Positions 3,242-60,805 of a stretch of 64,000 nucleotides of DNA are shown here, one piece after another. Position 1 is the first letter of the stretch. Every line of letters starts with the position of its first letter. Made by a program: the position numbers and the translations under genes. The notes beneath the pieces are model-generated. The model did no database searches. It was given only the letters and a program-made list of their open reading frames with translations, and had not been told where the DNA came from. This DNA is from Cheiracanthium punctorium (lineage: Eukaryota; Arthropoda; Arachnida; Araneae; Cheiracanthiidae). The DNA is taken from assembly GCA_038373885.1 (NCBI GenBank), contig JAWZYV010013186.1, positions 248,001 through 312,000 of the forward strand, written 5' to 3'.

Positions 3242-3740
3242 TTAACCCTTTGAGGCGCAACCCTTTCCCATTGCTGGAAAAAGGACATCCATTGCAATCG
3301 TTCGACTGAACGACCCGCAAGAGGGCGGACGATCGAAACATTCATTAGCGTGCCACAGACCTAGAGACCCTTTTTTGACGCAGCTGGCTGTGCCGCACAG
3401 CCAGCTGTCGTCAAAAAACGGTCTCTAGATCTGTGGCACGCGATGAACGTTTCGATCGTCCGCCCTCTTGCGGGTCGTTCAGTCGAGCGATGGCAACGGC
3501 TGCCCTTTTTTCAGCAGTGGGCAATCGGTCCAGCTGTTCTCGCTTTCTTCCATTTTTCAGCAGATGCCAGTGCTGTTAAAAAGAATCGTGGCCATTCTTT
3601 AACGGGAAATGATGTGCTCAAAAGTAAAGGATTCTCGGGGAGCTATGGCACCCACCACTATTTTTATAGAAATCCAATCTATTCTTCGTGACTGGCAACA
3701 GTCGAAACGTCAGAGTTCGGTGTCCTCACGGCGAGGACAG
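3242..3740 (+). mobile_element. Palindromic TTAA-type MITE, copy lacking the right end
   Basis: Starts TTAACCCTTTGAGGCGCA, has both inverted arms and most of the single-copy tail (GACTGGCAACAGTC, then AAACGTCAGAGTT). It diverges at about 3725-3740, before the terminal TTAA that full copies keep. Confidence 0.75.
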
Positions 3741-4454
3741 ACCAGTTTTGGCACTGGCTTTCTCTGAATACATCTTCTCCATGCACATCGGATCATTGCC
3801 CTTCTTTCTTAAATAATAATTTTACCTTTTCGATAGAGAAAAAGCAAAACAGGTCGAAAATGCTGCTTTTCAGTTTCCATATTTGAAAGGGGTATCCACC
3901 AAAAACGACTACTCAGAATTTTTTGCAAGCAAGCTTGCTAAATAAGCTGTCAAAATGTACATATAATGTTTATGCGCTTAAGTGTGAAGTTGGCTGGGGT
4001 AAAATACAATTAAATCCTCTGTTGGGGGAAAAGGGGGGGGAAATTACTTTTCGTACAACCCAATATATTTTGGGCGCAAAACCGTATGACAGCATGGGCC
4101 ACGTAGGCTACGGCCTAGCCCCCCTACATTTTATGGGAAGGATGATTTAGACAGAAATTAAAATATAAGTGTAGAGAGCTTACCTTTACAGTCATTCAAT
4201 TAAAAACCTTTTCTAGTAAATATGCATTTTGTATGGCAACAAAATCCTCATTGGGGGGCAGCATGTAAGCCCCCTATCCCTCCCCCTTGGCTACGCCATT
4301 GACTGTGGGACATAAATCAATTAAAAACATGGTAATAAAGGGGTCTGGAAGGGCTACCACACCCCATAGCTTCCACTAGTTCTAGTGGGTTGCTCTGGTT
4401 GAAGTTTAGAGATACATATTGGGAAACCACACGTTTCTTTTATAATTGATTTTT
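3741..4454. other. Intergenic sequence with remnants of G/C-tract MITEs
   Basis: No gene seen. G-tracts and a TTGGCTACGCCATTG at about 4292-4306 look like the decayed right end of the CAGTGGCGTAGCC hAT family found intact at 12125. The rest is unassigned. Confidence 0.4.
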
Positions 4455-16134: not shown

Positions 16135-16989
16135 CTGGAGTGACTCCACTCGACTTTCCGAACACTTACGATTAAGATCGTTACCAAGCATTTAAATAAA
16201 TTTTAATCGATGAATAATTCAAACATATATACCAAATTGAAACTCAATCGAATGCACCATTTAAACGCTTGCGCACTTTCAAGAATTTCTCCCCATATGC
16301 CATTATGCCATAACATAAAAGAAATTTTTGTCGTAGTCCTGTAGAAAAACTATAAGTCTTATACACACCAAAATCAATACCGGTCTTAAGATGGTGATTT
16401 ATAACATATATACCCAATTTCAGCTCAATCGAAGGTACCGTTTAAACGCTAGCGCACTTTCAAGAATTTCCCCCATAGGCCAGAATGTAAAAGAAATCTT
16501 TGTCGTAGCCCAGTAGAAAAACTATAAGTGCTATACACACCAAAATCAATACCGGTCTTGCAACGGTGGTTTATAACATATATACCCAATTTGAGCTCAA
16601 TCGAATCTACCGTTTAAACGCTGGCGCACTTTCAAGAAATTCCCCCATAGGCCATAATGTAAAAGAAATCTTTGTCGTAGCCCTGTAGAAAAACTATAAG
16701 TCCTATACACATCCAAATTAATATGGGTCTTAAGATAGTGGTTTATAACATATATACCCAATTTGAGCTCAATCGAATCTACCGTTTAAACGCTAGCGCA
16801 CTTTCAAGAATTTCCCCCCATAGGCCATAATGTAAAAGAAATCTTTGTCGTAGCCCTGTAGAAAAACTATAAGTCCTATACACACCAAAATCAATACCGG
16901 TCTTGCGACGGTGGTTTATGACATATATATCCAATTTGAGCTCAATCGAATGCTCCGTTCAGGAGCTATCGTGTTCACTCACATACACA

Positions 16990-21368: not shown

Positions 21369-21560
21369 GTTGTAGTGCTCCATCCGTTGCTGGGTCCGTG
21401 TAGCAGAAGTCGCCCCCTTCCCCGGTCCAAAATGTCAGGTCCGAGTACGCTGGAGTACCAGGGACTGCCGCCCCCCAGAGGTCTCTACCACCCTCAGTAC
21501 GAGAAGGAGGCTTGCGGGGTGGGGTTCATAGTCAACATCAACGGGAAAGCTTCACACAAA
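21369..21560 (+). CDS. GOGAT: Glutamate synthase (GOGAT), first recognised coding exon
   Basis: Acceptor CCATAG before 21369 and donor GTGAGT at 21561. From the ATG at 21432 the exon gives 43 residues ending in phase 0, including YEKEACGVGFIVNINGK. ACGVGF is the hallmark start of the class II glutamine amidotransferase domain of glutamate synthase. Cys 28 is the predicted N-terminal nucleophile, exposed after removal of a short propeptide. The enzyme makes two glutamates from glutamine and 2-oxoglutarate, using NAD(P)H in animals. The frame stays open from the ATG back to the acceptor, so a longer N-terminus from an upstream exon, or a start inside this exon after a non-coding first exon, are both possible. 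Confidence 0.9.
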
Positions 21561-25458: not shown

Positions 25459-26699
25459 GGGGCTGATTCTTCTGAACTATCATATTATTAGCATATAGGC
25501 CATTGCTGACATTGATCCTTTGGCTTAAATTGAAGGGTTCAACGAAATTTAGAGAGGAGACGTTGGCCCACCTGTTTGCAGGACCGTCTCCAAGGTAGCT
25601 GGCGCCCCGGGCAAGCTAATTTTCTGCCCCCTTTTTTAAGGAAGTCTAACTCGTTTACGACGAGCTCTTATTTAAGAACTCTGAAGTAACGAGGAAAGTG
25701 GAAATTCCTGGTTGGTACAAATTAAGTCCATGGGACTATAACTCGCTTTTAACGAGTAAAACCCGGTTATGTCGAGGAATGTTTTCGTGTTTTATAAAAT
25801 TTCTATTGACTTTCTCTCTTGACTCTTTTTTTCCAGATCAGTTAAACCTTTAGAAATTTTTTTAGACATTCTAAAGTCAATAAAAACGACGATGATAAAG
25901 AAGAATATGAAGAAGTTATACAAAAGGGATCACCTGACCATGGGCAGCTGAAACAGTACGACCTTCGATAAACCTTAAAAAGAAAGAAAAAAAAATCAGT
26001 TCCCTCCCCTTAGGATTGTGCTTTGATGGCTGCCCGAGTTGCCGATATTTTGAGCCGGCACTGTATGTTGGATGACCCCCTAATAAAAAGGCCAACACTT
26101 GCGATCTTTGTAGTGGCCGATCCCCTACACGCCAAGTGTATACCAAGACCCCATAAACTATGTGAGTGGAACAACACGCCAAATTAATGTTTTAGTCATA
26201 ACTTTTCTTTGCCTGTGGAACAAGCATTAAATTTGGGAGTGCTTTACGAATCATAGCCCCGTTAGCAACCAGTGTTGCCAATGTACTAAATTTTGTTGCT
26301 AAATTTAACGGCTTTTCATTGTAAGTGGGGATATATTTTCTGCTGGTATCAATGACATTTTTAATTGCTTGTCTTTCGGATTCAGATACTTTTCAGATGA
26401 ATTTGGGGTTTCCTTATTAAAATTAAAAACCTTAGAAATGAAGGGATCAAATTTTTAAGATTATAATTATGAAAGTTTGTCTGTAGATGGAAAATAGTTT
26501 AATACTGGGTTAATCCACTATTCATTCTATCAGATTTCTAGGTGTAGTTATCTGCCATCAAAGTTTCAGTGTTTAATATGTACAATATAAAGATTCTTCC
26601 TGTGAACATTGTTGAAATCTGAAAAAACACTCAAAATGCTGGTGTTAAACAATAAAGTAATTAAAAAACTTTGTAAAAAACACACATAAGAAGTAAAAG

Positions 26700-26760
26700 G
26701 AAAAAGGATACGCGTTTCGTTCAAAAATTGTTTTGAACTTCTTCAGTCCAAGCTCTTCGA
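26700..26760 (-). ncRNA. Hammerhead-like ribozyme motif, monomer 1
   Basis: Minus strand: GGA, CTGAAGA (26740-26746), 8-bp stem II GTTCAAAA/TTTTGAAC with a CAAT loop, GAAAC, 2-bp stem III with GC loop, GTA (26709-26711), TCC closing stem I. One extra A lies before stem II. Confidence 0.45.
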
Positions 26761-26808
26761 CGTAAAGAACACAGGGACTTTGTAAAAAACACACATAAGA
26801 AGTAAAAG

Positions 26809-26869
26809 GAAAAAGGATACGCGTTTCGTTCAAAAATTGTTTTGAACTTCTTCAGTCCAAGCTCTTCGA
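26809..26869 (-). ncRNA. Hammerhead-like ribozyme motif, monomer 2
   Basis: Essentially identical to monomer 1, 109 bp downstream in direct orientation: CTGAAGA at 26849-26855 and GTA at 26818-26820 on the minus strand. Confidence 0.45.
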
Positions 26870-26954
26870 CGTAAAGAACACAGGGACAGTCCCTGTCCCT
26901 GTGTCCCTCCCATAGGTCCCCCTGGACCCTCCCATAGTCCCTGTGTTCTTTACG

Positions 26955-27015
26955 TCGAAGAGCTTGGACTGAAGAAGTTCAAAACAATTTTTGAACGAAA
27001 CGCGTATCCTTTTTC
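26955..27015 (+). ncRNA. Hammerhead-like ribozyme motif, right arm
   Basis: Plus strand: GGA then CTGAAGA (26969-26975), stem II GTTCAAAA/TTTTGAAC, GAAAC (26997-27001), GTA (27004-27006) and TCC. Same architecture as the other monomers in inverted orientation. Confidence 0.45.
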
Positions 27016-27176
27016 CTTTTACTTCTTATGTGTGTTTTTTACAAAGTTTTTTAATTATTTTATTGTTGAAATCTAGCATGATAACCATACTAACCCATTA
27101 TTATAATTCCAAATCACAATTATTAATTTGGAATATGAACTCAAATTAATCAGTTTTGTTGTAGAGTCAGGATATA

Positions 27177-27596: not shown

Positions 27597-27727
27597 CTGA
27601 TCGCCGATGCCGCCACCATATCCAAACGCATGGAACATCGCGGAGCCTGCGCTTGTGACAACAGTACGGGAGATGGGGCAGGAGTCATGGCTGCCATACC
27701 CCATTCTTTCTACTCACAGGTGCTCAA
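27597..27727 (+). CDS. GOGAT: Glutamate synthase exon 2
   Basis: Acceptor TTTTTTAACAG and donor GTGAGT at 27728. 43 codons plus two bases (AA), which join the G of exon 3 to make Lys. The product includes SKRMEHRGACACDNSTGDGA and then GVMAAIPHSF. The HRGA...TGDGAG pattern is the conserved substrate-binding segment of the glutaminase domain in glutamate synthases. It directly continues exon 1, and the GC-rich codon use contrasts with the AT-rich introns. Confidence 0.93.
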
Positions 27728-32193: not shown

Positions 32194-32347
32194 GCACACA
32201 GCCAGCAGTCGTCAAAAAAGGGTCTCTAGATCTGTGCCACGCTACGAACGTTTCGATCGTCCGCCCTCTTGCTGGTCGTTAAGTCGAGCGATGGCAACGG
32301 CTGCCCTTTTTTCAGTATTGGAAAAGGGTTGCGCCTCAAAGGGTTAA
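32194..32347 (-). mobile_element. Half copy of the palindromic TTAA-type MITE
   Basis: Runs from the hairpin centre (CACACAGCCAGC) through one arm to TGCGCCTCAAAGGGTTAA. The mirror image of the half copy at 6556. Confidence 0.7.
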
Positions 32348-32870
32348 GCAGAACACCTTTTTTTGAGAGGGGGGAAAGGGGTGGAATTGAAAATGTGTAT
32401 ACGTTTTTTTCTTTTACTTTTCTATTTTTTGTCTTTAATTTATCTACTTATTTTATGTCTTTAATTTATCTACTTATTTTATGTCTTTAATTTATCTACT
32501 TATTTTATTGGAAAAGGGTTGCGCCTCAAAGGGTTAAGCAGAACACCTTTTTTTGAGAGGGGGGAAAGGGGTGGAATTGAAAATGTGTATGCGTCTTTTT
32601 TTTCTTTTACTTTTCTATTTTTTTGTCTTTAATTTATCTACTTATTTTATGTCTTATTTTATGTCTTTAATTTATCTACTTATTTTATGTCTTATTTTAT
32701 GTCTTTAATTTATCTAATTTTATTGGAAAAGGGTTTCGCCTCAAAGGGTTAAGCAGAACACCTTTTTTTGAGAGGGGGGAAAGGGGTGGAATTGAAAATG
32801 TGTATGCGTTTTTTTTTTTCTTTTACTTTTCTATTTTTTGTCTTTAATTTATCTACTTATTTTATCTTTC
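32319..32870 (+). repeat. Three-copy tandem array grown from the MITE end
   Basis: GGAAAAGGGTTKCGCCTCAA followed by GAGAGGGGGGAAAGGGGTGG starts at about 32320, 32510 and 32724 (190 and 214 bp apart). Within each unit a 24-26 bp block (TTTAATTTATCTACTTATTT) is itself repeated a variable number of times. Confidence 0.85.
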
Positions 32871-34612: not shown

Positions 34613-35458
34613 CTGGAGTGACTCCACTCGAGTTTCCGAACACTTACGATTAAGATCATGGCCAAGCATTTAAATAAATTTTAATCGATGAATCATTCAA
34701 ACATATATACCAAATTGAAACTCAATCGAATGCGCCGTTTAAAGGCTTGCGCACTTTCAAGAATTTCTCCCCATATGCCATTATGCCATAACATAAAAGA
34801 AAGTTTTGTCGTAGCCCTTTAGGAGAACTATAAGTCTTATACACACCAAAATCAATACCGGTCTTAAGATGGTTATTTATAACATATATACCCACTTTCA
34901 GCTCAATCGAATCTACCGTTTAAATGCTAGCGCACTTTCAAGAATTTCCCCCCATAGGCCAGAATGTAAAAGAAATCTTTGTCGTAGCCCTGTAAGAGAA
35001 CTATAACTCCTATACACACCCAAATCAATACCGGGCTTAGGATGGTGGTTTATAACATATATACCCAATTTGAGTTCAATCGAATCTACCGTTTAAACAC
35101 TAGCGCACTTTCAAGAAATTCCTCCCATAGGCCATCCTGTAAAAGAAATCTTTGTCGTAGCCCTGTAGGAAAACTATAAGTCCTATACACACCAAAATCA
35201 ATACCGGTCTTGCGACGGTGGTTTATGACATATATATCCAATTTGAGCTCAATCGAATGCTCCGTTCAGGAGCTATCGTGTTCACTCACATACACACAAA
35301 CACACATACACACACACACATACACACATACATACATACATCTCGTAAAAATAGCATAAATGGATTCAGAAGCCCCCAAAACGTGTAAAAACACAATCTC
35401 GAAGTCGAATTTTTTCTTGATTACAATACTTTCCTTACATGGTACATGTTCGGAAAGT
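34613..35458 (-). mobile_element. Helentron-like interspersed element, three internal units (846 bp)
   Basis: Hairpin TGGAGTGACTCCA at the left, TGTTCGGAAAGT at the right (ends 35458). Three units (anchors near 34738, 34918, 35092) and a (CA/CATA)n microsatellite at about 35290-35340. Confidence 0.72.
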
Positions 35459-43238: not shown

Positions 43239-43877
43239 CTGGAGTGACTCCACTCGACTTTCCAAACACTTACGATTAAGATCATGACCAAGCATTTAAA
43301 TAAATTTTAATCGATGAATCATTCAAACATATATACCAAATGGAAGCTCGATCGAATGTACCGTTTAAACGCTAGCGCACTTTCAAGAATTTCTCCCCAT
43401 AGGCCATCATGTAAAAGAAATCTTTGTCGTAGCGCTGTAGAAAAACTATAAGTCCTATAAACATCAAAATCAATACCGGTCTTACAATGGTGGTTTATAA
43501 CATGTATACCCAATTTGAGCTCCATCGAATGTACCGTTTAAACGCTAGCGCACTTTCCAAAATTTTCCTCCATAGGCCATCATGTAAAAGAAATCTTTGC
43601 CGTAGCCCTGTAGAAAAACTGTAAGTCCTATACACACCAAAATCAATACCGGTCTTGCGCCGGTGGTTTATAACATGTATACCCAATTTGAGTTCAATCG
43701 CATGCCCTGTTCAGGAGCTATCGTGTTCACTCACATACACACAAACACACATACACCACGTAAAAATAGCATAAATGAATTCAGAAGACCTCAAAACGTG
43801 TCAATACACCAAAATCTCGAATTCGAATTTTTTCATGATTACAATACTTTCCTTACATGGTACATGTTCGGAAAGTA
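43239..43877 (-). mobile_element. Helentron-like interspersed element, two internal units (639 bp)
   Basis: CTGGAGTGACTCCACTCGAC at the left, TGTTCGGAAAGT at the right (about 43865-43876). Two units (anchors near 43366 and 43538). Confidence 0.72.
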
Positions 43878-49820: not shown

Positions 49821-49987
49821 CAGGGCCGGCCCAAGGGGGGTGCGAATGTAGGCGATCGCCTAAGGCCCCGCGCTTATGGAGGCCCCGCTCATGGGCCATT
49901 TTATTGCTATCTCATAAGACATGATAGAGAAGAGGCCCCGCTCTTGCACTTCGCCTGGGGCCCCGCACGCCCCTCGGGCCGTCTCTG
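49821..49987. mobile_element. hAT-like MITE with CAGGGCCGGCCC ends (167 bp)
   Basis: Ends CAGGGCCGGCCCAAGG and CTCGGGCCGTCTCTG, flanked by CATAGGC on both sides (49814-49820, 49988-49994). Copy 1 reads ATCACAGGCGTAC across the site with no insertion. Interior GGCCCCGC repeats. Confidence 0.8.
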
Positions 49988-51667: not shown

Positions 51668-52351
51668 TAAGGTGACCATACGTCCCGTTTTTAGGTGGCC
51701 TGTCTCGTTGTCCCCAAGCACAGCTTCGGGACAACGTTATGTCCCGTTTTTAGAAAATTTCCCCTGCAATGTCCCGTTTTTAGAAAGAGAGCAACCCACG
51801 GTAACGATTTCAATAAAGGCCGCTCAAAATCTAAAATCATCTAACCTTCCTCCCTCCTCTCTCGAGACACAAAGAAAATGATGGGGGGGAATGCCTTGTT
51901 TATATGTTTGTTCGTTTAATGTTCTTTTTTGTCAACTATATCAATTTATTTCTTTTTTTAAAGTCATGTTCCTTTTCCCGTTTCACTCTAGTTTTCTAAG
52001 AATTTTTTTCCTTCCGAATGACCACTTCCTTTTTTTCTGTTTGTCCTTTTGTTTAAATTTCTCGTTTTCCTACCTTCCTGCTTTGTGTCGGAGGGTGTTT
52101 TTGAAGCCGAAGAAGGGCCTACCTCTTGTATCACCCGAAACGTAACGTCTTGCACTATTTGTTATAGTATATGTGTGTTTTAGCAAAGTTTTTTTTTAAA
52201 TTTTATTATGATATGAACATGAACACAAGCTTTTATGAGCGTTTTCTTAACCACTAAAAGATACCCAGACCTGTGAATTCAGTCTCCCTACAATACTACC
52301 TTAAAAACAGTAGATGTCCTGTTTTCAAGAAAAAAATAAATGGTCACGTTA
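51668..52351. mobile_element. hAT-type element with TAAGGTGACCATACGTCC end (684 bp)
   Basis: Ends TAAGGTGACCATACGTCC and TAAATGGTCACGTTA. Perfect duplication GTTATGAA (51660-51667, 52352-52359). CGTCCCGTTTTTAG is repeated several times near the left end. It contains a degenerate hammerhead-like piece. Confidence 0.82.
52084..52200 (+). ncRNA. Degenerate hammerhead-like Penelope tail
   Basis: CCGAAGA, a GGG/CCC hairpin, then GAAACGTAACGTC: mini stem III ACG/CGT with a TAA loop and cleavage triplet GTC. It is followed by TATATGTGTGTTTTAGCAAA, echoing the outer arms of the elements at 2161 and 26621. The conserved U of CUGANGA is C, so it is probably inactive. Confidence 0.35.
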
Positions 52352-60514: not shown

Positions 60515-60805
60515 TATTTGCCAGGAGACGGCAGCTCGCATCACTGAATGTGTCGCTTAAAGCTACAATTACGTCCTTCCCGGAATTTCCCGCCACAATT
60601 TGGAACCTCATCAGAAGGTGGCGGACTTCTGAATATCGGCACCCCTCGGAAACTGCTAGCGACCGCCGAGAGGACTTTCGGAACCACGGATTTAACGTGC
60701 ACGTACACCGCATGTACACGGTGGTCTTTAGTGGTACGCCGGTATCGAACCCGCAACCTTTTGGTTATTAGTCCAACGCCTTAACCACTGGGCTACCACG
60801 GCCCC
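60515..60805 (-). mobile_element. Intact tRNA-derived SINE (291 bp) with a 14-bp target duplication
   Basis: Minus-strand head GGGGCCGTGGTAGCCCAGTG with A box, an ACTAATAA anticodon-loop region like tRNA-Ile(AAT), and B box GGGTTCGATACC. The body includes GTGCACGTTAAA and ends TGGCAAATA. TATAAAGCCAGATT flanks it perfectly (60501-60514, 60806-60819). Confidence 0.88.

Follow-up and report, generated by a model that had tools for sequence, protein, structure and literature searches.

What kind of element is the 441-bp insert (A) at positions 26621–27061 of the 64-kb stretch of DNA analysed here (the window)? A sequence-only reading had described it as three units, two in tandem at 109 bp and the third in inverse orientation, all bearing what looked like a type I hammerhead with minimal stem III, and had proposed a minimal ribozyme-bearing retroelement, pointing to Penelope-like elements (PLEs). 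The three 109-bp units, which are 100% identical, and their motifs were recovered by repeat and pattern searches, no ORF is present, and the insertion is as discrete as had been described, with the same 13 bp on both sides:

26608–26620, no strand: left target-site duplication, 13 bp, ATTGTTGAAATCT
26621–26668, minus: long tail of the left arm, 48 nt, which terminates in GAGTGTTTTTTC and contains an AACAC/GTGTT inverted repeat
26669–26777, minus: outer tandem unit, 109 bp, minus-strand sense (26668–26776 in the register of the repeat finder)
26706–26749, minus: hammerhead cassette of the outer unit, GGA-CUGAAGA-A-stem II-GAA-ACGCGU-A-UCC, predicted cut 26709/26708
26778–26886, minus: inner tandem unit, 109 bp (26777–26885 in the register of the repeat finder)
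26815–26858, minus: hammerhead cassette of the inner unit, predicted cut 26818/26817
26887–26936, no strand: head-to-head junction centre, C-rich, with a snap-back repeat (26878–26889 / 26893–26904)
26937–27046, plus: inverted unit, plus-strand sense
26966–27009, plus: hammerhead cassette of the inverted unit, predicted cut 27006/27007
27047–27061, plus: short tail of the right arm, 15 nt
27062–27074, no strand: right target-site duplication, 13 bp, ATTGTTGAAATCT

The inverted arms are 100% complementary over 111 nt (26777–26887 / 26937–27047) and end unequally, with a tail of 48 nt on the left versus 15 nt on the right. Exon-like stretches flank the insert, YEKEACGVGFIVNINGKASHK near 21507 and MEHRGACACDNSTGDGAG near 27630 (27597–27715, plus strand). 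As A lies between these two stretches, which look like glutamate synthase, it probably sits in an intron.

Comparison of the window with itself revealed a second insertion of similar anatomy, element B, also head to head (2148–2467), with 82–86% identity to A in the larger pieces. A diverged relative, element C, was found by nhmmer at 52081–52200 (E = 1.1e-4) with a model made from A and B alone.

2148–2160, no strand: left target-site duplication of B, 13 bp, TAAGATCAGTATT, a sequence other than that of A
2161–2319, minus: left arm of B with long tail, hammerhead cassette at 2247–2292
2329–2454, plus: right arm of B with short tail, hammerhead cassette at 2358–2403
2455–2467, no strand: right target-site duplication of B
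52081–52255, plus: element C, pLTR (pseudo-LTR) end and tail, decayed hammerhead with an extra A

The stretch of C downstream of the ribozyme outscores 500 of 500 shuffles by itself. In a search of the window with a covariance model C ranks seventh, with a weak score (13.9 bits, E = 0.53). A match at 49911 that ranked above it (15.6 bits, E = 0.18) has no core and was rejected, as was a candidate copy at 32401, for which 27 of 500 shuffled queries score equally high.

Each unit of A reads GGA-CUGAAGA-A-GUUCAAAA-CAAU-UUUUGAAC-GAA-ACGCGU-A-UCC, and has the CUGANGA...GAAA core and an NUH cleavage triplet in type I order; the decayed core of C reads CCGAAGA. The pattern CTGANGA-N{12,40}-GAAACNNGTA has three matches in the window, one per unit of A, where shuffles give an expectation of 0.01. 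The single extra A between CUGANGA and stem II, which the sequence-only reading had entered as a caveat, is real and is present in B and C too, so that stem II does not abut the core; it may harm catalysis. In A stem III has 2 bp and stem I 3 bp, and this is not a canonical hammerhead with a stable stem III.

Stem II, with GUUC/GAAC in A and GGCC/GGUU in B, has both partners altered in two of its eight pairs. Pairing is kept in 97.4% of cells, versus 29–59% with slid partners, in a comparison of three distinct sequences for which 55 of 500 shuffles score at least as high. The stem III sequences, ACGCGU in A and ACGUGCGU in B, are both self-complementary, that of B by way of two G–U pairs, with duplex energies of −9.5 (A) and −10.8 (B) kcal/mol. 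The apparent compensatory changes in stem II and the self-complementary stem III would support a minimal hammerhead, here regarded as a putative ribozyme. According to the accessible part of PMC6466107, a double hammerhead depends on tandem units and on a stem III loop that is palindromic; A has both. If active, the minimal hammerhead would most likely function in tandem transcripts, where its self-complementary stem III (ACGCGU) would let it form a double hammerhead. The best double-hammerhead fold of the tandem RNA reaches −46.1 kcal/mol versus −34.5 kcal/mol for two monomeric folds, an advantage of 11.6; the unconstrained fold is a different one, at −62.4 kcal/mol, 16 below the double-hammerhead fold.

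A search of Rfam at relaxed thresholds, by which the hammerhead was to be checked, returned no hammerhead family at E ≤ 10, an outcome that goes against the sequence-only reading; the top matches were to miRNA-type models, to which the long palindrome conforms, along with weak ones of other kinds. As for the expectation that the core would be better conserved than its flanks, the cassette is identical in 39 of 41 copies of the A type and 29 of 36 of the B type, in a comparison that is a weak test because it draws on the best-scoring copies alone and the flanks are conserved as well. In viral contigs neither the exact hammerhead core nor the pLTR end had a single match. The pattern CTGANGAAG..GAAACGCGTA occurs there at 11 loci, with a stem II of 5 bp in one (L001), 3 bp in another and 0–2 bp in nine. 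None of the 11 has both stems of A by stem count, and they were rejected as relatives; L001, with a stem I of 2 bp, has its 5-bp stem II and an extra A by chance.

That last locus illustrates how the hammerhead look of A might itself have arisen by chance, the stem II hairpin being kept to bind the PLE protein or to serve in a promoter, with no cleavage of RNA. Such a reading would accommodate the missing Rfam match, the extra A, a loop II (CAAAACAAUUUUUG) that is the same in A and B, and the preference of the tandem RNA for another fold. It is nevertheless unlikely, given the order CUGANGA...GAAAC...GUA/UCC at an expectation of 0.01 in the window, the compensatory changes in stem II and a stem III that is self-complementary in both subfamilies; conservation of PLE hammerheads is moreover reported in the available parts of PMC6155905 and PMC7761336.

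The origin of the units became apparent in a search of the host genome (2.53 Gb). At least 51 matches were listed for the A unit and at least 51 for the B unit, the best 40 of 609 and the best 40 of 1121 first-look candidates, respectively, being scored. At three loci (L042, L043 and L044) two inverted copies of the unit lie 2–3 kb apart, with PLE frames about 0.4–0.5 kb upstream of the unit; the frames comprise reverse transcriptase (RT) and endonuclease (EN) in L042 and L043, and EN alone in L044. In two further loci, L050 and L051, the ORF has a unit on either side; the open frames, with RT and a GIY-YIG-like motif, span 812 and 795 aa, or 767 aa counted from the first Met. In L051, read on the reverse strand, a direct repeat of about 810 bp with 96% identity (308–1115 / 3327–4132) overlaps the end of the ORF with its second copy. 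The predicted cut is at 1025, the tail end at 1113, the first Met at 1225 and the ORF end at 3525, and in the second pLTR the cut and tail end are at 4042 and 4130. A partial pLTR in inverted orientation, with the short tail, also belongs to this insert, which has a 14-bp duplication.

The L043 frame matched the reverse transcriptase family RVT_1 of Pfam with E = 1e-12 (48.7 bits versus a cut-off of 29.6). The GIY-YIG match (E = 0.007, 17.1 bits) is below the Pfam cut-off of 22.6; the motif GVYYIPC...DLGYIGQT lies downstream of the RT, in the expected order, and the relatives P0002 and P0014 carry PF01541. Among the database neighbours, the best-named one belongs to the spider Uloborus diversus, with 53% across 57% of the query. 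With the C-terminal 308 aa as the query, the best 128 of 10,504 first-look candidates were scored; these are shown as 100% identity (rounded), and many have the 795-aa frame. As judged from these matches, the family is both abundant and recent.

Intact-looking PLE copies exist in the host genome, and the 109-bp unit forms the 3′ portion of a pLTR found at both ends of the element's ORF. Because the host copies have the unit at both ends of an ORF with RT and a GIY-YIG-like motif, A is very probably a pLTR-plus-tail insertion of this abundant PLE, that is, a product without the ORF. B is likewise a pLTR-plus-tail product lacking the ORF. The suspected link to PLEs was therefore correct, while the proposal of an independent minimal retroelement did not survive. 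ORF-less ribozyme-bearing PLE insertions are of a known kind, and the genome copies reveal how such insertions are assembled.

Head-to-head pairs of arms were measured at A, B, L019, L020, L028, L029, L040, L042–L045, L047–L049, L051 and L052 and at the further B-type loci L057, L059, L061, L070, L078, L080 and L081; a looser tail search added L056, L063 and L068, for which the duplication search was also somewhat looser. In 26 of 26 measurable pairs, which are best-scoring loci and not a random sample, one arm has a long tail (46–48 nt) and the other a short one (12–21 nt as aligned, some short tails including a few bases of the target duplication). The count leaves out the loci with one arm in the stretch examined (L014/L050, L018, L030, L031, L035 and L037–L039 and, of the B type, L054, L055, L060, L064–L067, L069, L071–L077, L079 and L082). 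If each arm received either tail with equal probability and regardless of its partner, p would be 1.2e-7 for 23 mixed pairs and lower still for 26. In L032/L046 (G000:C2775), which was not counted, the 3′ end of one arm is rearranged (TTTTTTCAGTTATTTTATAAACAG); it is the only pair seen outside the tail scheme.

Exact target duplications of 11–16 bp flank 22 of the 26 pairs; that of L068 has 10 bp, and those of L019, L049 and L078 have 7–8 bp. The longest duplication in 2000 random placements was 10 bp, reached three times, with 7 bp or more in 49, and chance can produce lengths such as those of the last three pairs.

Long inverted repeats with target duplications at their flanks are also what a foldback or MITE-type DNA transposon with terminal inverted repeats of 110–150 bp would leave. 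The ends are asymmetric, however, one arm running 27–36 nt past the other in the 26 measured pairs, the length of the duplication varies, and an RT-EN ORF accompanies the unit. The probability of such an origin is negligible, and it was ruled out, together with a SINE origin, by the asymmetry of the ends and the linkage to the ORF. A different account of the head-to-head arms is snap-back self-priming of a single cDNA, which was proposed for Adineta vaga elements (PMC3846280); in the part of that paper available, a tail is optionally present on one of the inverted pLTRs and self-priming is discussed. The short palindromes at several junction centres (L029, L020 and L061) and the centre of A would suit this mechanism. 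Self-priming copies the first arm, and we would expect it to leave the same tail on both arms, whereas all 26 pairs have a long and a short one. As equal tails are what self-priming predicts, the pattern speaks for two separate starts, favouring one start of reverse transcription per target strand, and self-priming is considered quite unlikely. Two RT start sites are described in the accessible portion of PMC11167929, used in vitro without a strand difference.

How far the arms reach bears on the RNA that was copied. Full short arms meet near TCAGTTCCCTG, and longer copies extend upstream, where they have a pyrimidine tract. Short palindromes make up several of the junction centres. The 5′-end motif at the arm junctions presumably resembles an initiator or a splice acceptor, and for that reason a putative RNA 5′ end is placed there. 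Since the predicted cut site is inside the arms, we infer that uncut RNA was the template of those that reach TCCCTG. Strongly truncated arms begin at model positions 73 (L056), 78 (L019), 79 (L021/L051), 85 (L028 and L080) and 94 (L045), and the arm of L049 is shorter still. All begin downstream of the predicted cut (column 72), none at the cut without doubt, and none between positions 14 and 72. Cut RNA may also be used as a template in some events. In vitro, uncut RNA serves as a template and the hammerhead cleaves only when protein is added, according to the available part of PMC11167929.

A plausible sequence of events would begin with staggered cutting of both target strands by the PLE protein. 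Reverse transcription of the 5′ leader RNA would then start internally, once on each target strand, at one of two sites just downstream of the hammerhead. Both cDNAs would extend to the RNA 5′ end, near the Inr-like TCAGTTCCC, and be joined head to head, and the ORF would be left uncopied because the start sites are upstream of it. The additional tandem unit of A would come from a template jump or a tandem template.

At one locus, L045 (G000:C1463:4000-9500), 7.8 tandem copies of an ORF-less 293-bp hammerhead monomer lie within one insertion that has a 15-bp target duplication at its flanks. On its left is a truncated inverted arm with a short tail, and on its right a long tail. Its seven cut-to-cut monomers are at least 99.0% alike pairwise, with a GC content of 0.34, and the monomer matches the pLTR and leader of the PLE, the ORF being absent. 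These features fit a multimer inserted by the PLE machinery; circular RNA may be one route to the multimer, unequal exchange after insertion another.

Such an array brings back the question of whether A is a minimal retrozyme in its own right, a hammerhead RNA circle of 109 nt that is reverse-transcribed, inserted and mobilised in trans. The tandem hammerhead units of A, its target duplication and its lack of an ORF agree with this, and in size and GC the L045 monomer falls within the limits that the accessible part of PMC7229834 gives for animal retrozymes. The exact tandem junction of A, however, is present at A alone among the loci L012–L082, the 109-bp unit is the PLE's own end, and the hammerhead is minimal and not canonical, all of which makes an independent retrozyme very unlikely. 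A broader proposal, possible and to be taken as tentative, is that PLE insertion is an obligate two-start reaction, in which a proximal and a distal site are used on different target strands and complete insertions always carry a short and a long tail, and that the same machinery inserted at L045 a 293-nt ORF-less hammerhead concatemer of itself, a PLE giving rise to a retrozyme. Neither the one-long-one-short rule nor a PLE-derived 293-bp array was found in the literature, in a search whose scope did not include the main PLE-hammerhead papers.

The anatomy was compared with known systems as these are described in the available parts of the papers cited. As in canonical PLEs such as Pen2a_Av (PMC3846280), an ORF for RT and a GIY-YIG-like EN lies between direct pLTRs, with an adjacent inverted pLTR. 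Also shared with Pen2a_Av-type PLEs are a tail of about 31 bp on one inverted arm, the head-to-head order, the target duplication and the palindromes at junctions. The target duplications are mostly 11–16 bp here, against 8 and 9 bp in the cases of PMC3846280; the end of the tail lies 112 nt before the first Met here but inside the ORF in those PLEs; and the many short ORF-less pairs distinguish the present family from them.

Poseidon PAc of Anolis carolinensis (PMC11167929) resembles the present element in its pLTR hammerhead, in two internal RT starts bounding a tail of 30–40 bp, in the cutting and extension of both strands, which here is deduced, and in a stem-loop at the start site. In PAc the hammerhead cut falls within the ORF, at 26 bp, with the main RT start at 111–118 bp, whereas here the cut and the RT starts precede the first Met. 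PAc has no strand difference in vitro, and here each measured pair uses both sites.

The type I order and very short stem III are those of the minimal PLE hammerheads with cleavage in dimeric form (Cervera & de la Pena 2014; Lunse et al. 2017, via PMC7761336, PMC6466107 and PMC6155905), with which the tandem copies and the self-complementary stem III loop are also held in common; the extra A between CUGANGA and stem II may set A, B and C apart from them. ORF-less tandem type I hammerhead repeats, low GC and target duplications recall metazoan non-LTR retrozymes (PMC7229834), within whose size range L045 falls. In contrast to these retrozymes, the hammerhead here is minimal and not canonical, its sequence comes from a co-resident PLE, and it is known from DNA alone.

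The mobilisation of PLEs is poorly understood, and the origin of head-to-head copies is left between self-priming and other routes in the accessible part of PMC3846280. With very many candidate copies (10,504 at first look), fixed ends and clear target duplications, the question is directly testable in one genome. L045, as a PLE-type insertion that carries a retrozyme-like concatemer, bears on the proposal, made in the available part of PMC7229834, that PLEs mobilise retrozymes.

Ten ORFs of the window, one of them in the wrong frame, had no match in Pfam. Elsewhere in the window, 32280–32760 (plus strand) is a repeat region of GAAAAGGGTTGCGCCTCAAAGGGTTAAGCAGAACACC units and T-rich spacers, unrelated to the A family. 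Related open frames of the type GIYVINHHLKTGIDFGVYKTYS, at 16247–16441, 16600–16785, 34725–34919 and 43498–43710 (minus strand), are an interspersed repeat. At 60730–60799 (minus strand) there is a borderline tRNA match, with 29.1 bits versus the Rfam gathering threshold of 29, which is possibly the head of a SINE.
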